From a virus, in the IMG/VR virus record IMGVR_UViG_3300030102_006904, positions 3,613 to 28,430 of that record: a DNA stretch of 24,818 bases. One strand, given 5' to 3'. The position numbers and the translations under genes are program-made. The notes below the pieces were generated by a model. That model was not told the origin of the DNA, ran no database searches, and saw nothing but the letters and a program-made list of their open reading frames with translations. Shown here one piece after another: positions 7,188 through 18,313 of the stretch; within the stretch, counting starts at the first letter, position 1, and each line of letters opens with the position of its first letter.

Positions 7188-10100
7188 ATGGCTTCAGGAT
7201 TGGAATTTGTCAGATTTTTGAATGACTCTTTGAAGTCATCAGCATCCACGTACATCAAGTCCAAAACTGACGAGCGTGCCGAAGCCCAAAAGACAGTGGA
7301 TGCTCTGGATAAAGAGATCAACTATCGTGAGCGGTTGATTGCTCGGTACAGTGCGAGCGGGACCAGAGGAAAGCAGGCTTTTGGTGCGTATTCACAATTG
7401 TTTGGAAAGCTTTCAAGCTTGCAGGCAGAAAACGCAGATAAAATAGAAGCAGACCGATTAAAGCTCGATCAAGAACTCGGTAAGATTAAAAAGGAAAACG
7501 ATGCTTTTTACGAAGAAGCAGATGATGTAAGTGAAGGTCTGTCTGCTACTTTTGAAGCCATCAAACAAGGTCAAGATGCTGGAGATACTATTGCAGCAAT
7601 AGAGTCGCGATTGAGTAAAGAAAAAACCAGCGCAAAAGCAAGCCTCGTTCTTTATGCTAAATTAAACGAATCACTACAGTACGGCGCCTTGAGTGATGCT
7701 CCCAAGAAAAATGAGCTTATTGCTAAAATTCGCAAACAAACAGCAATTTTGGTCAAACGAAAAATCAATCCCACTGGATCTGCAGGGTTGCCGGACTCAC
7801 TGGATCCATCGCGGCAAGCATCACTTTTGGTGACTCCAATCACGGACAACTTTGTAAAGCAAGTTCACAATAGTCCCGTGCTACAGAAAAGATACTTGGG
7901 CAGAGTTGTCACATCAACTCGCGATCACTCAACGGTGTTGAACAAACTTGAAAACCTTATGTTTGGGGGCGGTGCTGAAGGTCTTTCCGAAACCCAAGTT
8001 GCACAACAGGTTGTTTCCGCAATTGGTGAGCAGATTCCAAACACTGTCGAAATCTCACCACAGGGAGTGGTTAGCTTTGTTGAGGGTGCCACCCAACAGG
8101 ACAAAAACGAAGCCGTCAGTCTGCTCAATGACGCTGGTATTCCTCCTGGCACAACTATCGCCCAAGCTGGTCGCGCCCTGGAGGTCCAGTCGGGTCGCGA
8201 TGATTCAAGCAAGATCCGCAGTGAAATAAACCAACTCAAGCAACGACGCGAGATGGCTGTGGAGAACTTGGCGAGAACCCCCAGGCTCTCAACAAGTAAG
8301 CTTGCGCTGCTGGACCACCCTATTTTGCGTGTTCCAGGCTTCAGAGAGGCAATAGGCACAGTTTCTGGTAGAAGGGCAAGAACAGCCGCTGTAGGCGCTG
8401 AAACACAGGTTCTTGGAGCCCAAACACAAGCTGATACTGCGGGCGATATCGAGTTTACGAGCACCAGCCCAGTAATCAATGTCCCGTCCACATTTGAGTT
8501 AAGCGAAGATGACATGGCGGCATTTACAGATGAAGCTGATGCCAGGATTATGGGTGACGATCAAGATGATGATGATGATCTTGGACCATTAGTACAAAGG
8601 TCTACCGCTGGGCTCACAGAAGGTCAACGAGCCCCAGGTATGCAGTTCGGTCCTACTGTGTCCACAGGTGTACCTGTCATGCCTGCCGTGGTTCGTCGGA
8701 TTCGGGGTGCGGTTCAAGGTGTCACCGATGCAGCAAATTCAGACGATCCTGTTGCCATCGATGCAGCACAACAAAATCTGGTAACCATCGTTCAAGACTT
8801 CAATCGGTTGCCTGAAAGTATTCGGAGCCGTTTTCCGCAGAGTTTCTTGGCAGCGATGCAAGAAGTTGATGATGCAAAAGCTGGACCTGAAATGATGCAG
8901 CAGCAGATCGAAAGGGCGCTACAGGGAATCGAAGATCTACCGATGAGTAGTGAAACTGTTGTTTCTTATGTCTCACAAGTTGATCTTGAGGATGCTGATT
9001 CCATGGCATCTACTGCTGACTTGCTTGAATTTATCGACCATCCAGACTCTTTGGGTGACGATGCGAGACCTATGGAAGATAGGAATCGTATGGTCTTAGG
9101 TCGGCTAGGTGCCGATTTTAAGTCGTCTTACGCGAGTTTAATATCGGACTCATCAATGGCTGATGATCAAGTCGGATCTTTAGATGATGCTGTTGGTGCG
9201 GGACTTGTTGATTTGCGAACAATTGTTGGTGTAGCAAGAGATCGTGTAAGTACAGACAGTTTGTTTGACTCACCGGACATGTACGGAACCTATGGCGAGC
9301 TAAGCAGAACTGGACGAGCGGCCCCACGCACACCTGATGTTGATCCAATGGATGATGATTCAGACATTACGATTCCAGATCTTATCGAGCCACCAGTTTA
9401 CAATCAGTTGATGACTTCAGCATCTGGATTGCAATCGACTGGTCGGAGAGTCCCAACAACTGGAATTGAATCAAGGGATACTTCTGCTTTGCGGCCAGGA
9501 TCGGCTGGCAGTGTAGATGTTCGAACCTTGGGCACAGATGTTCCTGATATGCCTAAATCAAGAGAAGAGAGTTTCAGAGTGATGGGTGTGGATACTGTAG
9601 CAAGGCCACCCATGGCCACCCGGACAGAGCCTACACGAAGAACACGTACCTCTTCACCTGCTTCTGTCGCAAAACCTGATGCAGCACCTCCACCACCTTC
9701 TACGACAACGACCGTAAACATTGCAGATCTGACAGGACGTACCAGGCAAGCATTCGATAATAGGCTCAATGCCCTCTCTGACTATGCCAGAACACCCATA
9801 AATATAGACGGGGTGGAAGTGCAACCAGGTACTTATTCAAAAACCCAAACGGACGTAGTCCAAGGAATACAAAAGCTCATAAGCGATTTCAGGCTCGATG
9901 AAGAAAGCGCAGAGGAAATCGAAAAAAGGGTTATGCCGGAGAAGCCGGAAGATGACGGGTTGGGTAACCCGGCCCCGCAAAAGAAAAGCGACGAAGAAAT
10001 AAAGGCGTTGCTTCAGAAGTACATCAATGAAGACGCTGCTGTACGTTCCATTGAGTTTAAGGGACCAGGCCCTATGGTTTCAGATTCTACCCCGATGGAT

Positions 10101-10628
10101 GAAGAACCTTTGCCTGAGTTCTCCAGTGCTGCATCTGACATTCGCGTAAGGCCAACCCAAAGCGATGTCATTACCCGATCTTTTTATACTGAACCAAAAC
10201 CTCATCCAGTTACAGGTAGAGGGCTTCCACATTTGGGAACAGATCTCCGAGCAAGGGAAGGAGACCCTATACAGTTGATTTCATCTGGAACCGTTTCAGC
10301 AATTAAACGAGATCCATCTGGAAATGCTGGTAGGTCCATTTATGTAGATCATCCCGATGGTACTCAAACTCGATACTTTCATGGCAGCGGATTCCCTAAA
10401 GATATTGAGGTCGGTCAAAATCTACAAGCTGGATCAACTATCATGTACGCTGGATCAACTGGTCGATCGACTGGTCCACACCTGCACTTCGAGGTTGGAA
10501 GAATGGAAGGCGGTGAGTTCAAGCAAATGAATCCTGAAAAAGTTTATCCAGAAGTGTTCGGTGGAATGAGACACAAGCATGGCCCTAAGAAGGACGATGA
10601 TGTCTTGAAAACCAATATGAATATTTGA
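7188..10628 (+). CDS. Large internal virion protein with C-terminal M23 zinc endopeptidase domain
   Basis: This 1146 aa protein starts with a long coiled-coil region (about residues 20-130, rich in Lys/Glu/Asp) and continues through low-complexity acidic and polar segments, including DDQDDDDDLGP near residue 457 and a Pro/Thr-rich linker (DAAPPPPSTTTT) near 830. The last 150 residues are a peptidase M23/LytM-type domain. HLGTD gives H1015 and D1019, RYFHG gives H1065, and GPHLHFEVG gives H1098 and H1100. These are the expected zinc ligands and catalytic histidines of this family, which cuts peptide cross-links in peptidoglycan. Placed beside the giant protein at 10670, it is positioned like T7 gp15, while the cell-wall activity that T7 carries on gp16 is here on this protein. 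The likely role is local wall opening during DNA entry. A lysis role at the end of infection is less likely but possible. Confidence 0.75.
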   Translation: MASGLEFVRFLNDSLKSSASTYIKSKTDERAEAQKTVDALDKEINYRERLIARYSASGTRGKQAFGAYSQLFGKLSSLQAENADKIEADRLKLDQELGKIKKENDAFYEEADDVSEGLSATFEAIKQGQDAGDTIAAIESRLSKEKTSAKASLVLYAKLNESLQYGALSDAPKKNELIAKIRKQTAILVKRKINPTGSAGLPDSLDPSRQASLLVTPITDNFVKQVHNSPVLQKRYLGRVVTSTRDHSTVLNKLENLMFGGGAEGLSETQVAQQVVSAIGEQIPNTVEISPQGVVSFVEGATQQDKNEAVSLLNDAGIPPGTTIAQAGRALEVQSGRDDSSKIRSEINQLKQRREMAVENLARTPRLSTSKLALLDHPILRVPGFREAIGTVSGRRARTAAVGAETQVLGAQTQADTAGDIEFTSTSPVINVPSTFELSEDDMAAFTDEADARIMGDDQDDDDDLGPLVQRSTAGLTEGQRAPGMQFGPTVSTGVPVMPAVVRRIRGAVQGVTDAANSDDPVAIDAAQQNLVTIVQDFNRLPESIRSRFPQSFLAAMQEVDDAKAGPEMMQQQIERALQGIEDLPMSSETVVSYVSQVDLEDADSMASTADLLEFIDHPDSLGDDARPMEDRNRMVLGRLGADFKSSYASLISDSSMADDQVGSLDDAVGAGLVDLRTIVGVARDRVSTDSLFDSPDMYGTYGELSRTGRAAPRTPDVDPMDDDSDITIPDLIEPPVYNQLMTSASGLQSTGRRVPTTGIESRDTSALRPGSAGSVDVRTLGTDVPDMPKSREESFRVMGVDTVARPPMATRTEPTRRTRTSSPASVAKPDAAPPPPSTTTTVNIADLTGRTRQAFDNRLNALSDYARTPINIDGVEVQPGTYSKTQTDVVQGIQKLISDFRLDEESAEEIEKRVMPEKPEDDGLGNPAPQKKSDEEIKALLQKYINEDAAVRSIEFKGPGPMVSDSTPMDEEPLPEFSSAASDIRVRPTQSDVITRSFYTEPKPHPVTGRGLPHLGTDLRAREGDPIQLISSGTVSAIKRDPSGNAGRSIYVDHPDGTQTRYFHGSGFPKDIEVGQNLQAGSTIMYAGSTGRSTGPHLHFEVGRMEGGEFKQMNPEKVYPEVFGGMRHKHGPKKDDDVLKTNMNI

Positions 10629-10669: not shown

Positions 10670-13600
10670 GTGGCACAACAAGACGACTTCATTACCGACC
10701 CCGATTCAGATGAGGCTGTCATTGAAGCCGCTTCTGGTTCTTTGGAAGCCATTTTTGCAGACGATGATCAAGACGAACAGGCGCCGATCAGTGATGCCGA
10801 TGAGGCTGTAATTGGAGCCGCTTCTGAATCTTTGGGAGAGATTGCAGAAGGTTTTGTTCCTGAATCGCCTGAAATCGCTGAAGATGAAGCCCTTGAGCCA
10901 ATACAACTTCCTGATGAACCTCTTGATATTTCGGCAAAAAAGGTTCAAGAGGCGAAACAAGCCTATATACAAAGCTTTTATAACGACACTTTTGGAGATG
11001 GCCGAAATGGTCTGACAGAAGCGGAGGCACTACAGAAAACAAATGAAGTAACTGGCCATTTAGACGTGTTTGAAACCTCTGGAGCCGAATCGTTTGTTGT
11101 CGGAGATCAACCAGGGTCAGGTATTTTGCCAAGCAGGCTCGCACCTCTGACAACTGCAGTGCCCACGGCTGATATTTTTCGACAACAGATCGAATACACC
11201 AAGAAAAACAAGAATCAACCTACGTTGAATCCAAAATTCAAAGATCTCGGTGGTCAGTCTCCAGACACTTTAATGACCATCGAGTCAGCCAGGGCTGCCA
11301 ATCTTGTAGATGAGAATGACAACCTCAAAGATGTTCGTGAAATATTCGGGTTCGAAATCAACAATGAGGACTTGAGAAACCTTTCATTGGGTGCAGGAGC
11401 AACACTTGCTGCCCGTGGTGCCGCAAAAGGCATTCAGATGGGTCGGGTAGGTGGGCTACCAGGCATGGCCGGTGGAGCGGTAGCTGGCTTGATTTTGGGT
11501 GGTCTTCAGGGTCTCGGCCTTGGTACTGGTGGTTCTATCGTTGCGCTCAGCTATTTGGATAAACCAGACGATTATTCTTCCACTGACTTTACGATTGATT
11601 CAGTCAAAAGGCTGTACACAAACCTTGGTATTCCAGACGATGCGGCTGATTTTATTACGTTGCAATCGGAAAGCACTCGAAAGGAAACAGTTGCTGATGT
11701 GATTGCTCTGGCAGAAAAACTACGGATTCCAGAAGCACAGCAGTTTGCCGAAAAGTACAGCTTGCAGGATGATCAGGTTTTTTCGGATGTCATTCAACAG
11801 GCTGTTGATCAGTACGAGTCTGATTTGAAACAACAAAACTTTCCAAGTGAAATGCAAGATCTTGGAGATATTCTAACCATTGATCTTTTGCTTAATAATG
11901 AGCCAAGCATTGTTCGCGGTCGAGAGCTTGTAGAGCAAACCAACAATGCATTCTTCAAAGACCTCATTGATTTGCAAACCAGAATCACTGAGCATCCTGA
12001 ATATAAAGACGCTCGCGGAGTCGTTAAAGAAGATCTGCTCGAAGCGAAGAAATACGAGCTTGATATTGAATCTCGGTATCAAAAGCCGACTGATTCAGAT
12101 ACCCAACTCAGAAAAGTTTTTGAGCGTGTCGCTTCGGGAACCTTGGATGAAAGCGAAAAGCATGATGAGTTTAGGTCGCTGCTTTCACAGCTTTCGTATG
12201 ATGACATGCATCCTGAACTTCGAAAAGAAGTCCCAAGCTTAGAAGCATTTAAAGAAATCGCTCGATTGGTTCCACCAAACCATAGCCTAATGACATCCGA
12301 CTTCGATCCAAATGTCATCAATGCAATCAGGCTGGTTCATGCTCAACCTGTTGGCACTATTTCAGAACAGTCCAGTGCTCAAATACAACAAGCGTTAAAT
12401 CGTGTTCCTGTTGGTGTGTTCGATCAAAGAGTTTTTAAGTCAGTCATCGAAAACACAATACCGTCGAATGACGAAATCGACGCTTGGGCCAAAAAGTCGA
12501 TTGAAAAATATCAAGCACGGGGCGGCAGGGCTGGAACGATTTACGAGCAGACCGGTCTAAGCTTAATGATGGACAAAGCAGAGTCTGATGAAATCGGTGT
12601 CTACTTCAAAAGGTCAACTCTTGCCAACATATTGAACTATGCGGGTGTTGTCCCTACGGCCCTTTCAGAGGCAGAGATTGGTGTAAGCAGCGAACAGCTT
12701 GAGCCTCTTTTTGAAAGAATTGGATTGCCAGGTGGTCTTTACTTGCCAACTCCTGCTGGTATTGACCGCATGATCGAACTGGGTATTCGACCACCAGATG
12801 CTGACTTTTATTCTCGAACGGATGCTCGACTAAAAACCATGACTGGTGGGTTTCAGGTCGGCTATGTCGAGATCGCAAGAAGGCTCGGGTACAACCCTGG
12901 TGATGGTGCATACAACAGGCTTCAGGCTCTTGGATTTTTCTTAGATAGCTTTTTGAATCTTGAAAAACACATGATCAAGTACACGGGAAAAGCAAGCAGA
13001 GCAACACTCAATGCACCGTCTGCTTTGAAACAATTTTCAGGAGCACCACAGGGATTCAAGTATCGTTCTGCAAAAGAAGCGTTGCTTTCTGGTGTTGTTG
13101 ATCGAGGATCTTCTGATCCAAGCGTTCGACACAACTCGATGATTCAAGAGATGGCTCTTGATATGCAACTTCAGGGTCGCAATATTTTGGATCCGTCTGA
13201 AAAATTTATTACGCCAGCAGAGTTGGAGTTGTTTCGTCGGATCGCACTTTTGACTGATCGAGATCCAGAGCTTTACATCACAGCATCTGCAATCGCTGCC
13301 GATGATGTTATGGCAGTTCAAAGAACATCCAGGCAGATTATTAGACAGGTTGATTCTAATGACATCACTGCCTTGCGTATGTCGCCTCAGTACCGAAGAA
13401 TTGAGGCTGAAGTTCAAGATGTGGTGGACCAGGGTCTGATTACATCGAGAGACAAACAGCAGTTTATGTCGATCTTGGAGCACCAATCATTCCGATTGGC
13501 GTTGCAGCCTGATACGCCATTTATCAGTGCTATAGACGTGCTTGCAGACCTTTCGGTGACTGTAGATCGTCAACCACGCGCCCATGCACGCTTCATGGGT

Positions 13601-16600
13601 GTAAAGCCAAACGTAGATGACGCTGATGTAGATGCGCCTGCGACAGTTCGTTTGATTTCAAACAACGAAGATCCAGATGTAAGGCAAGCTAGAAGAAACG
13701 GTGTTCCACTTGGATATTTCGAATACGATCAACAAACAGGTCGTTCGATTATCAATCTATTTCGCAATGGTGACTTAGATACGTTGTGGCATGAGAATGG
13801 GCACTTCATGGCCACGCTTATGGGCACTGACTGGTCTCAAAGATTGGTGCAGTTCTTTGATCATACCGTTGGTCCCAACGGAGTACGTGTTCTTTCCGAT
13901 CTTGGGCATGAACAGTTCGCAGATGCGTGGACCTACTATCGAAGAGTTAAAGACGCTCCAAATGGCGTTGTGCGTCGTTTGTTTGATGAGCTTTGGATCA
14001 ATCTGCACAACCTATATTCACGCTTGCGTCGTAAGCCTGGATTGCTACCAAAAGATGTCCGAAAGTATTGGGACGTTGAGTTTGGTACGTTGCCGAATGA
14101 CATTCGAACAGTAAACGCTTTGTCTGCTAAGGTGCTACGAAACAGGCCGTATGTAGTCAAAGTTGATGCGGATGCTCGAAGGCGTATAGCTGAAGCTAAG
14201 CCTGCCCGACAGGCACGCGAAATGGTGGCCAAAGAACCGTCGATGAACCCCGAAGTTCTTCATCAGTATTTTGGTGACAAATTTCAAACCACCGTTGAAA
14301 CATTCCGAGATCCAGGGGCACCGCAGCCACGACGTATCCCCACACGGAAGTACGCTGATACATCTGATGATGCCCTTGAGTTTGTTAGAAAGGCTGTTGC
14401 TTACATTAAGACTGAGCAGTTTCGTAAAGACATTCGTGGCATCAAAACAACGCCGATCGGAACCGGGCGATACATCGTTCCAGTCTATAGGCAAAAGATT
14501 ATTCTTGAAACAGTTCGTCAGCGCATGGTTGATGCTGTTGGCACGTTGATGGACAACCTCGACAAACGAATCTTTCAGAGGGAGTTTAATCGTACTGCAG
14601 AGGGATACACAGCAATCACCGATCGTGATCGTTTACCAGACTATGTAACCACCAACGACCTGCGGGCGTTTGGTGAAAGGATGCGTTTGCGTCATGCTGG
14701 TCCTGATCGATTGGTTGCAGAGAAGATTCCAACGACCGAGTTTTTTGTTCTGACTGATGACGAACAGGCTGGGCTTCGAACGTTGATACAAGAGATGGCA
14801 AAAGAGCCAGCGTCTGATATTTTGCCGATTAGTTTGTTGGACCCCAGCGCAAATCTACGCATCTTGGCTCTGGACGAGTACAACTCGATTCACGCTATTT
14901 TAGCAGACATCGAAGCAGGTCCATTGAATCGGGTAACAAGAAGTAAAGTCGATCCTGGCCTCGTAAATAATTTAATTAATGGTGCAAAATCAAAGTTCAT
15001 TACAACACAAATCGGACAAGCGTTAGAGAGACAGGTTTCAAAACTTACGAGTAAAAAAGCACCTATAAATAAAAAGACAGCCAATCCAGACTTCGTGGAA
15101 CTTCAAGAGCAATATATTCGCAGGCTTAAAAATGCTCCTCAAGAGGTCATTAAAGACTTAGATAGCGCAAAAAAAGGCGATAACTTTTTATCTTTCTTTA
15201 GAAATCAAGTAAGTTTATTAACTCCAAAAGTACCGCTTGCTTCTGTCCGAAAACTATTCAATATTGTTGAAACAATCGAAGGACTCAAGGGTCGTATGGA
15301 CGATGATGCTCGCGCCTCTATGCGTCAAGCAACGATCACTGGGAAAGACTTTCCAGAGGGGTTCGATCCAATCACCACGGAAGGTGGCGACGTAGAACTG
15401 AAATACATCTTTAGTAAGGTCAATGACATTCAAGATTTGCTTGATGGTCCATATGGCATGACTGCACTGGAGCGTAAGGCGATAACGCTTGTAAGAAAGC
15501 TTTCCCGAGTTGCCGAACTGGATGAAAAGCAGCGAATCAGTCTGGCTGATGCCATATCAATTTTGCACATCGGGCTTCTTGAAAAGCAACAGTATGTGAA
15601 CGATACAGGGTTGCAGGTATTTAATTTGGCTCTTGGAGTTGATGACACAACTCCGAATATTTATCTTACATCAGAACAAATCAGAGATATTTACCAAGCA
15701 TATTACACTGGTGATTTATTAAAAATATACGATATTGGTGCAACACAATCTTTGATTCCAATGGAAATGGATGTTGCAAAAAAACTTTTTGGTGAAGATG
15801 TAACCACACAAAACATTGATAATATAGCTTTATTAACAAATGTTCTTGTATACGGAAAAATAGCAGATATCCGTTTTGGATTTGCCAAAGAGCTTGCCGA
15901 GGCTGGATATGACACAAGCAGGCGTAAACTTGTACAAAGAATAGATCTCAATGAGGCTCCACGCATTGATCGATTGAAGTACATTGATCGCGTTGCGTAC
16001 TACATCGATGCTGAGCTTGCTTTCCAAAATAAATTGATTTCTGAATACGGAACCAATGATCTTTTGAAAGTTCCATCAACTCCAACAGGAGATGCGAAAA
16101 AAGCAGGAGAATTTTTCGGTCCCTTAGATAAGCCAAACTCCAAACACCCTGACACTACTGTCATAAGTAACTTTGACAAAGCGGCAAAAGGTGAGGCATC
16201 AAGAATAATTGACCAAATGGGTTTGCGTAGACAAAGGGGTGTCTTCAAAACTGTTCGACTGGGTGACGAAACATTTTTCATGCCAGAGGCAGTTATCCAA
16301 GGTTTGGAAGATGCGTTTGCAGAAACATATCAAAAATCAGTATTTTTCAAGCGCAACTTTGGTGAAGGATCTGTTGAATATGAATTGGCAGGTGATCACA
16401 CTCCAACACAAATACAAATATACAGAGATGCATTTGATGTTGGTATGCGTTTTTGGGAGCTAAGCCCTCATCAGCCAAGAGTGTTTTATACTGGTTTGCT
16501 GATTGGTTCAGGTCCGTTCCCTATGGTTCCATACTTTATGGGCGTGTTCATGGGAACTCTGAGTCAAATGCATCTTGGCTCTGGTGTAAGAGCGGCGATT

Positions 16601-18313
16601 GCAGATGGTGTCCAATTCTTACCGACAATGTCGCAAATAGCCGTTTCAAAAGCAGTGGATGTTGAGGTTGATTTTGTTGCTGGTGTAATGGCAAGAACGT
16701 TTGGAAACGGACATCATAAGCCAATTACAAAGCCGCTTGTGCTACCAGATGGTCGAGTTTTGACTGCTGACTTTGTTGCAAACGGTGTTGATCGATTCGG
16801 TTTAAAGCAGGCTTTTGTTGATGTCATCAAAAACAAAAATGTCCATGATGCGGTTCTCGAAAAATTTGGACGCCAAAACCCTTGGGTGGGCGGTTCTGTT
16901 ATTGGTGGTACGATCGGTGGCCTTTTGGGTGGTCCTGCTGGTGTTCTCGGTGGTGCTGCGACTGCCGTAACGCTTGGAACGTTGTTGAAGCGTGGTGGCC
17001 CTCTTTCTAAAATGCACAATGTGTTTGCTGAAACAGCCACTGCAATCGATACATATTTTCGACTTCGTCTTTTGGTTAGAGAGCTAAAAGAGGGATCAAC
17101 CATTGAAAAAGCTACTACAAGAGTCAGAGATGTTGTTCTTGATTATTCTGACTTATCAGATGTAGAGAAACAATATTTTAAAAAGTTTATTGCGTTTTTT
17201 ACTTACTTTAGACAGGCCGGTAAGCTTTTTTATAAAACATTATTTCAAAATCCAGATCGTGTTTTGACTCAGTTAAAGTTGGCTCGATCCACTCAAATGG
17301 CCGCAACGACTGACAAAGAGGGTCAATTTCAAGATCCAGAGTTGGTTTTGGCTCCATGGGATCGAACTCGCACGTTTTTGCCATTCAAGATCGGTAACCA
17401 TGCGGTGAGAATGCCGTATTTGATTGTCAACGACATGATTGCCCTTCACGTAGATTTTATAAATTCAATTCCAGGTTTCGTTGGTGAACAAGAAGCTGGA
17501 ATAGCGACTCGAAATTTTTTGCAGCGAGTAGACCCATTTGTCTTGCAAGCCTTTACAGCAGCTACACAGACTGATGTGTCTATGGGTATTCCTCTTAGTC
17601 GTGCAACCAATCAAGTGCCTGCATTGATGGTTCAGCTTGATCACGATATTTTCGGTGGTCCGCTTGGAGATTTCTTGGGACTTGAATACATCCCTTATGG
17701 AGACATTAAACAGACATACGATGAAAAGACTGGCAGAAGAATCAACCTCAATAATTTAGAGATGCCAGGTCGTGGTATTTATGTCGCAACGAAGCCAATG
17801 AGAGCAAACTTGCTTCTTAACTTTGTTCAATATCCATTTACCGGTCGCATGTTGGACAACCTTGTTGCTATTGATCGTTCCAACATCGGCTTGGTTGAGG
17901 CCATGGTTGCAGCAAGTGATGCATACTACCAGGCCGATAAAGAAAGACCGTTACTGGCGAGAGTTCCTGGTTTGGTTGAGATGGGCCTTGTAAAAGCCAA
18001 ACGCGAAAAGTTCCGAGTCATCGATGGTAGGATTGAAGAAGTTGTTCGACCTACTGATGTGTCTGACCCATCCATTGCTCCCGATGTTGCTGGTTACCTT
18101 GATACTGCTACAGGCAGGCGATCTATTAGGGAAAGCTATGATTACCGTGGATCTGAAAATTTGAGTTATCGTCTTGGTTACAGAGACTTTTATCCATTAG
18201 AGCTTGGCAAGTTCCTCGGTTTCTCGTATGTTCATGTACAAGATGGTACGCGCAACGTGAATCGAAAAAATAAGCAGTTCATAAAAGAACTAAAAGAAAA
18301 GACTAATGAATAG
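10670..18313 (+). CDS. Giant (2547 aa) internal virion / DNA-ejection protein with HExxH motif
   Basis: Translation probably starts at the GTG at 10670. The protein begins with an acidic, duplicated segment (residues 14-56). A glycine-rich hydrophobic region follows at about 239-297 (AGGAVAGLILGGLQGLGLGT). At 1041-1045 lies HENGH within LWHENGHFMATLMG, an HExxH zinc-protease motif. E1081 in GHEQFADAW is a possible third ligand, as in gluzincins. Long helical regions follow. Hydrophobic segments occur at about 1938-1968 (GLLIGSGPFPMVPYFMGVFM) and 2073-2108 (GGTIGGLLGGPAGVLGGAAT). A motif near 2157-2182 (LDYSDLSDVEKQYFKKFIAF) resembles C-terminal regions of other giant phage ejection or polyvalent proteins. 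By position and size it corresponds to T7 gp16. No transglycosylase or RNA polymerase motif was recognised. Its role as an ejection conduit is inferred; the protease activity is predicted only. Confidence 0.65.
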   Translation: MAQQDDFITDPDSDEAVIEAASGSLEAIFADDDQDEQAPISDADEAVIGAASESLGEIAEGFVPESPEIAEDEALEPIQLPDEPLDISAKKVQEAKQAYIQSFYNDTFGDGRNGLTEAEALQKTNEVTGHLDVFETSGAESFVVGDQPGSGILPSRLAPLTTAVPTADIFRQQIEYTKKNKNQPTLNPKFKDLGGQSPDTLMTIESARAANLVDENDNLKDVREIFGFEINNEDLRNLSLGAGATLAARGAAKGIQMGRVGGLPGMAGGAVAGLILGGLQGLGLGTGGSIVALSYLDKPDDYSSTDFTIDSVKRLYTNLGIPDDAADFITLQSESTRKETVADVIALAEKLRIPEAQQFAEKYSLQDDQVFSDVIQQAVDQYESDLKQQNFPSEMQDLGDILTIDLLLNNEPSIVRGRELVEQTNNAFFKDLIDLQTRITEHPEYKDARGVVKEDLLEAKKYELDIESRYQKPTDSDTQLRKVFERVASGTLDESEKHDEFRSLLSQLSYDDMHPELRKEVPSLEAFKEIARLVPPNHSLMTSDFDPNVINAIRLVHAQPVGTISEQSSAQIQQALNRVPVGVFDQRVFKSVIENTIPSNDEIDAWAKKSIEKYQARGGRAGTIYEQTGLSLMMDKAESDEIGVYFKRSTLANILNYAGVVPTALSEAEIGVSSEQLEPLFERIGLPGGLYLPTPAGIDRMIELGIRPPDADFYSRTDARLKTMTGGFQVGYVEIARRLGYNPGDGAYNRLQALGFFLDSFLNLEKHMIKYTGKASRATLNAPSALKQFSGAPQGFKYRSAKEALLSGVVDRGSSDPSVRHNSMIQEMALDMQLQGRNILDPSEKFITPAELELFRRIALLTDRDPELYITASAIAADDVMAVQRTSRQIIRQVDSNDITALRMSPQYRRIEAEVQDVVDQGLITSRDKQQFMSILEHQSFRLALQPDTPFISAIDVLADLSVTVDRQPRAHARFMGVKPNVDDADVDAPATVRLISNNEDPDVRQARRNGVPLGYFEYDQQTGRSIINLFRNGDLDTLWHENGHFMATLMGTDWSQRLVQFFDHTVGPNGVRVLSDLGHEQFADAWTYYRRVKDAPNGVVRRLFDELWINLHNLYSRLRRKPGLLPKDVRKYWDVEFGTLPNDIRTVNALSAKVLRNRPYVVKVDADARRRIAEAKPARQAREMVAKEPSMNPEVLHQYFGDKFQTTVETFRDPGAPQPRRIPTRKYADTSDDALEFVRKAVAYIKTEQFRKDIRGIKTTPIGTGRYIVPVYRQKIILETVRQRMVDAVGTLMDNLDKRIFQREFNRTAEGYTAITDRDRLPDYVTTNDLRAFGERMRLRHAGPDRLVAEKIPTTEFFVLTDDEQAGLRTLIQEMAKEPASDILPISLLDPSANLRILALDEYNSIHAILADIEAGPLNRVTRSKVDPGLVNNLINGAKSKFITTQIGQALERQVSKLTSKKAPINKKTANPDFVELQEQYIRRLKNAPQEVIKDLDSAKKGDNFLSFFRNQVSLLTPKVPLASVRKLFNIVETIEGLKGRMDDDARASMRQATITGKDFPEGFDPITTEGGDVELKYIFSKVNDIQDLLDGPYGMTALERKAITLVRKLSRVAELDEKQRISLADAISILHIGLLEKQQYVNDTGLQVFNLALGVDDTTPNIYLTSEQIRDIYQAYYTGDLLKIYDIGATQSLIPMEMDVAKKLFGEDVTTQNIDNIALLTNVLVYGKIADIRFGFAKELAEAGYDTSRRKLVQRIDLNEAPRIDRLKYIDRVAYYIDAELAFQNKLISEYGTNDLLKVPSTPTGDAKKAGEFFGPLDKPNSKHPDTTVISNFDKAAKGEASRIIDQMGLRRQRGVFKTVRLGDETFFMPEAVIQGLEDAFAETYQKSVFFKRNFGEGSVEYELAGDHTPTQIQIYRDAFDVGMRFWELSPHQPRVFYTGLLIGSGPFPMVPYFMGVFMGTLSQMHLGSGVRAAIADGVQFLPTMSQIAVSKAVDVEVDFVAGVMARTFGNGHHKPITKPLVLPDGRVLTADFVANGVDRFGLKQAFVDVIKNKNVHDAVLEKFGRQNPWVGGSVIGGTIGGLLGGPAGVLGGAATAVTLGTLLKRGGPLSKMHNVFAETATAIDTYFRLRLLVRELKEGSTIEKATTRVRDVVLDYSDLSDVEKQYFKKFIAFFTYFRQAGKLFYKTLFQNPDRVLTQLKLARSTQMAATTDKEGQFQDPELVLAPWDRTRTFLPFKIGNHAVRMPYLIVNDMIALHVDFINSIPGFVGEQEAGIATRNFLQRVDPFVLQAFTAATQTDVSMGIPLSRATNQVPALMVQLDHDIFGGPLGDFLGLEYIPYGDIKQTYDEKTGRRINLNNLEMPGRGIYVATKPMRANLLLNFVQYPFTGRMLDNLVAIDRSNIGLVEAMVAASDAYYQADKERPLLARVPGLVEMGLVKAKREKFRVIDGRIEEVVRPTDVSDPSIAPDVAGYLDTATGRRSIRESYDYRGSENLSYRLGYRDFYPLELGKFLGFSYVHVQDGTRNVNRKNKQFIKELKEKTNE
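10709..10835 (+). repeat. 90 bp-spaced duplication at the start of the giant gene
   Basis: Two copies of an imperfect repeat of about 37 bp begin at 10709 and 10799. Both start GATGAGGCTGT and share GCCGCTTCTG. They encode DEAVIEAASGSLEAI and DEAVIGAASESLGEI, 30 residues apart. The rest of each 30-residue unit is acidic and less conserved. The repeat looks like a small in-frame duplication of an acidic helical segment in a flexible N-terminal tail. Confidence 0.7.

Follow-up and report, generated by a model that had tools for sequence, protein, structure and literature searches.

A zincin-type domain in a giant phage protein has repeatedly lost its active site together with a candidate cleavage motif in the preceding linker

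Does an HExxH motif inside a giant phage protein mark a protease, and if so, what would such an enzyme cut? This question is raised by a 24,818-nucleotide stretch of viral DNA (hereafter the window), which is part of a 44,183-base IMG/VR virus record. The first-pass annotation had pointed to HENGH at residues 1041 to 1045 of its giant protein and to E1081 in GHEQFADAW as a possible gluzincin arrangement, and both could be read in the open reading frame as described. HExxH occurs once in the 2547 residues, against 0.023 expected from composition, and is absent from all 14 other open reading frames of the window that were scanned. The extreme N-terminus of the protein (window positions 10670 to 10870) carries an imperfect repeat, SDEAVIEAASGSLEAIFADDD and ADEAVIGAASESLGEIAEGFV. 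The features discussed below are collected in Table 1.

Table 1. Positions in the window of the giant gene, its parts and the adjacent hydrolase domain
Feature	Position	Strand	Remarks
M23 peptidase domain, end of the neighbouring 1146-aa protein	10227..10502	+	HLGTDL and GPHLHFE residues present
Giant protein, internal-virion/ejection type	10670..18313	+	GTG start, 2547 aa; gene order like BPP-1 and UFJF_PfDIW6
N-terminal part, residues 1-972	10670..13585	+	side of variable length in relatives
Linker motif ARFMG, residues 973-977, candidate self-cleavage site	13586..13600	+	co-lost with the active site; low-confidence AF2 coil
Zincin-type domain, ~residues 1010-1150	13697..14119	+	bbp10 homology; best-conserved stretch; AF2 pLDDT mostly 74-88
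HENGH, residues 1041-1045 (H1041, E1042, H1045)	13790..13804	+	inside predicted helix 1036-1050
E1081, presumed third zinc ligand	13910..13912	+	inside predicted helix 1077-1093
C-terminal part, residues 1151-2547	14120..18310	+	near-constant length in relatives (alignment A4)

The giant gene is embedded in a cassette whose order (tail tubular/internal virion genes, peptidoglycan hydrolase, giant protein, tail fibre/spike) is common to Bordetella phage BPP-1 and UFJF_PfDIW6, and the open reading frame upstream matches the internal virion protein phrog_511. From this gene order, the giant protein is probably an ejection (internal virion) protein. The first-pass annotation had also envisioned two zinc hydrolases in one ejection machine. 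An M23 hydrolase is indeed encoded next door, by the 1146-aa open reading frame at 7188-10628 (Pfam PF01551, E 3e-19); however, the M23 domain does not lie inside the giant protein, and this part of the proposal has to be amended.

Sequence searches place the motif within a domain. In a tblastn search of the domain against phages, weak matches were obtained to UFJF_PfDIW6 (E 0.004), BPP-1 and Carin1, all of which show HExGH and, further along, HEQ(F/W)A at positions that align with the window protein, and whose giant proteins follow a lysozyme/transglycosylase gene and precede tail fibre or spike genes. Blastp among these sequences and that of the window gave E values of 7e-8, 3e-6 and 1e-4, which apply to this small set only, and a BPP-1-like locus (L020) bridges both groups with E 2e-12 to the window protein. 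A profile of a 73-row alignment of the domain (A6), which includes the window, detected a single copy in the record to which the window belongs (E 1.5e-51). The residues H, E, H and E are invariant in 59/59 aligned distant relatives, and family members weakly match the metallopeptidase models M3, Tox-MPTase4, DUF6782 and Mx. Pfam, PHROGs and NCBIfam assigned no significant family to the window giant protein and recognised no further domain in it; phrog_9880 gave a sub-threshold match across the active site, the curated MPTase-PolyVal model PF18818 matched nothing in the 44,183-base record at E 10, and a PDB sequence search returned nothing. No relatives were found in bacterial genomes. Separately, hits H14-H56 of the phages collection put the zincin domain in genes that bear the names lysin, lysis protein, coil containing or crystallin beta/gamma motif protein, in phages of Caulobacter, Vibrio, Bordetella and cyanobacterial hosts; those annotations look wrong.

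Structure prediction, which the first-pass annotation had recommended, gave a divided answer. The initial AF2 model was of low quality (pLDDT 52); with the 73-row alignment, the model of 176 residues reached a mean pLDDT of 72.6, with 74-88 across the core. HENGH and E1081 fall in separate predicted helices, and since the HENGH helix precedes the E1081 helix, their order fits that described for MPTases. However, Foldseek of this model against the PDB returned no zincin and no significant match. In the viral library, the matches were phage giant proteins, some of them named polyvalent-associated or crystallin motif (E 3e-4 to 1e-2), the latter being the annotation of bbp10, and an IrrE-like protein ranked 18th (E 0.2). 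The negative PDB fold search and the missing Pfam family are what one would expect if HENGH and E1081 were a chance match in a helical domain of another kind. Nevertheless, such a coincidence is most improbable because homology to the bbp10 domain extends over the 140 residues around the motif and 74 relatives keep H, E, H and E; the invariance in the distant relatives, the weak matches to several metallopeptidase models and the IrrE-like fold match also speak against it. Thus, by sequence comparison, residues ~1010-1150 form a homologue of the bbp10 zincin-type domain, with its gluzincin-like HExxH...E set intact in the window phage, and the first-pass reading stands in that a probable ejection protein does contain a domain of the zincin type.

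The closest known system, BPP-1 bbp10 and its relatives (phrog_9880), carries the same domain (HESGH...HEQFARGF in bbp10) in the same virion-cassette slot, i.e., after a peptidoglycan hydrolase and before the tail fibre/spike. As in the window, the N-terminal side of these proteins is variable and the C-terminal side conserved. In contrast, identity within the domain is only ~25%, the C-terminal regions are not detectably alike (hhalign E 0.13), the BPP-1-like linker reads Q...R[GA] where the window has ARF, and the polyvalent domains LPD22 and PBECR1 are present in bbp10, whereas the window protein is without a Pfam match. Polyvalent proteins of phages and plasmids have been discussed as a group that is thought to enter the host with the phage DNA, with zincin-like MPTases as their most common domain (Iyer et al. 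2017, PMC5512222). As in the window protein, these MPTases are described there as parts of large proteins, with HExxH in one helix and the glutamate in a helix further on. Self-processing has been predicted for them; P1 DdrB is reported there to be cut before packaging and N4 vRNAP, which bears an HExxH domain, to be packaged uncut. The N4 gp50 C1 domain (PMC12633501) resembles ours in that its giant ejected protein continues beyond HExxH into an extensive helical C-terminal region, but differs in its longer spacing and its fusion to RNA polymerase; hhalign of the two domains gave E 0.045 and a probability of 1.2%. The window domain is a divergent member of a known domain kind. What seems new, judged from the sequences, are the pseudo-zincins that occur in nature and a candidate cleavage site, described below: a limited search of the literature turned up no previous report, and the available text of Iyer et al. 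(PMC5512222) mentions neither inactivated versions nor a candidate cleavage motif.

Are the catalytic residues maintained among relatives? Independently of the motif, viral contigs were searched with C-terminal regions, and the active site was read afterwards. In the BPP-1-like family surveyed in this way, 76 loci match the domain profile, 74 of them cover the site, and H/E/H/E is intact in all 74; the profile was seeded with intact sequences, and four loci gave no profile match. Members of the window clade were found partly by motif and partly by C-terminal region. This clade (n = 15) is set apart from the rest by a branch with full support. Five members (the window, L002, L003, L004 and L005), all with E1081 unchanged, have kept the active site, which is degenerate in the other ten, namely L006 (YENGH), L007 (QNDGH, V), L013=L014 and L015 (SANAD), L018 (QANGH), L028 (SANAD, T), L030 and L032 (KMEGH, R), L031 (KLNGV, Q) and L126 (SADSQ, D). 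Therefore, the conservation in homologues that the first-pass annotation looked for was seen in the sister family, but not in most of the window's own clade. Trees of the post-domain region (13 rows) and of the domain without its four catalytic columns (73 rows) both need five changes, which we read as losses because every outgroup member is intact. By these trees, the site was lost separately at least five times; four is the more cautious figure, since the change in L006 is a single substitution, possibly an error or very recent. A permutation test on the catalytic columns within the degenerate members (p 8e-5) was discarded as circular, as these same columns define "degenerate".

Loss of the site in 10 of 15 members argues that protease activity is not essential to the giant protein. 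No second zincin copy was found as compensation in the records of degenerate phages that were searched (a set without L126). The slot before the giant gene holds an M23 hydrolase in intact and degenerate clade members alike, which rules out M23 as a substitute for the lost zincin. In L031, this slot is occupied by a phage tail lysozyme (L031:1-3279), and in BPP-1 by an SLT transglycosylase (L009:3493-5655). As far as the gene orders compared here tell, the slot is fixed and the hydrolase in it exchangeable.

The domain itself has persisted in the degenerate members. Between these and the window, residues 1010-1150 share 58% identity as compared with 34% over the whole protein, and among 100-aa windows this region ranks near the 98th percentile for conservation. 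In the clade, the length from site to C-terminus is 1502-1571 aa (SD 25), and the length before the active site 951-2103 aa (SD 388). From these lengths, the zincin domain is seen to sit at the joint of an N-terminal part of variable length and a near-constant C-terminal part. One may ask, then, whether the domain is mainly a scaffold, serving in packing, in unfolding and refolding or as a docking joint, with the intact site a remnant of little or no role. The ten clade members without an active site, in which the fold is still the best-conserved segment, favour this, as do the new fixed residues at the former active site (SANAD in L013, L015 and L028). Furthermore, N4 vRNAP is described as packaged uncut, and its C-terminal region is reported to be required for encapsidation (PMC5512222; PMC4496689, citing unpublished data); this fits a structural role, as far as the two domains are akin. 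However, the sister family has kept the site in 74/74, and five members scattered across the window clade hold all four residues jointly with ARF, whereas a useless site would not be expected to track a linker motif. Hence we place the scaffold-only reading on the unlikely side.

The linker motif in question, ARF (R974-F975), lies 66 residues upstream of the active site. ARF(M/Q) is present in 5/5 intact members and absent from 10/10 degenerate ones; L126, which was found later, has a dead site and no ARFMG, with an unrelated VRF nearby. Because the motif was noticed after the degenerate members were known, a protein-wide column scan was run as a control. The five intact members share 371 invariant columns; A244, F975 and H1041 were the only ones lost in 8/8 degenerate full-length rows, and R974 and E1042 the only ones retained in just one such row. 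A244 (11399-11401), the sole all-lost column outside linker and active site, may be chance. ARF and the active site changed together in 5/5 independent pairs (two-sided sign test 0.0625, as low as five pairs can give). L002 and L006, for instance, share 94% DNA identity and differ at nine amino acids in residues 940-1200, five of them in or beside ARFMG and one being H1041Y; comparable 8-residue clusters of change occur at two other places in this pair, so the one at ARFMG is not by itself unique. In 6/8 degenerate full-length rows, the linker segment is absent as a whole, and the co-loss could therefore reflect linker shortening.

The first-pass annotation had listed three roles for the protease, i.e., processing of virion proteins, cleavage of itself during maturation and action on host proteins on entry. 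Self-cleavage is the one that the co-loss of ARF and active site backs; no virion or host targets were found. It is quite possible, though short of likely, that the zincin cleaves its own chain at the ARF linker, that this cleavage is optional, and that the fold is retained for structural reasons. Also in its favour are the self-processing predicted for polyvalent-protein MPTases and the cutting of P1 DdrB; against it, the linker of BPP-1-like proteins has another motif than ARF, the PDB fold search and the Pfam models identified no zincin in the window protein, and N4 vRNAP is packaged uncut. The folded domain, with zinc presumably bound, would cut the linker that precedes it, within or close to A973-R974-F975-M976-G977, either within the virion or just after ejection. 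Such a cut would yield pieces of ~975 and ~1570 residues and would split the N-terminal part from the zincin plus C-terminal module. Sister lineages would have given up cutting several times, the catalytic residues and the linker site vanishing together, and the fold of the dead domain would stay as a structural joint. A bolder version, in which the built-in zincin and its A-R-F cut site are a dispensable pair, co-lost repeatedly, and the dead domain is an essential structural joint, we hold more tentatively still.

Cutting of other proteins, either virion partners in maturation or host proteins on entry, is unlikely. In favour of it, the gene order fits an ejection protein, and host-directed action is listed as possible by Iyer et al. 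(PMC5512222). Nevertheless, ARF occurs only once across all window proteins checked, no other target was found, and co-loss with a linker motif in cis is unexpected for an enzyme acting in trans. Alternatively, the ARF segment could be a built-in regulator, e.g., a pro-segment in the active-site groove, which was lost once the enzyme became inactive. The same pattern of co-loss would result, and the position of the segment, 66 residues upstream in a predicted coil, would suit it. However, the giant proteins of L004 (L004:3565-13869) and L005 (L005:2842-13860) carry ~780 and ~990 extra residues, respectively, between ARFMG and the zincin, which is awkward, though possible, for a fixed pro-segment, and we consider a regulator very unlikely. 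Pfam found nothing in these extra residues; the stretch in L005 matches phrog_2563, of unknown function (E 3e-16). Each of these large-insert members is intact and has a degenerate relative without the insert. A large cargo as the reason to keep the protease was nevertheless rejected, as the site is also intact in the window, L002 and L003, none of which has a large insert. An internal translation start at M976 is also unlikely, L003 having Q there.

A different linker motif precedes the domain in the BPP-1-like family, where Q...R[GA] is found in 59/60 nonredundant relatives as compared with 16% of random stretches. In L036-L115, it lies 20-55 residues before HExxH, often with LFQ or FYQ closing the variable N-terminal region. 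Q...R[GA] may be a cut site or merely the edge of the domain.

Returning to optional self-cleavage, its interest lies in the separation of two roles. Repeated natural inactivation, with the fold kept and the linker motif co-lost, separates a catalytic from a structural role, and the co-loss of ARF names a specific bond region and specific residues. These observations bear on the role of the commonest domain of polyvalent proteins, as described in PMC5512222, and on the HExxH domain of N4 (PMC12633501). If true, the window clade would represent a naturally replicated experiment on the purpose of the polyvalent proteins' commonest domain, with a specific proposed cut site.
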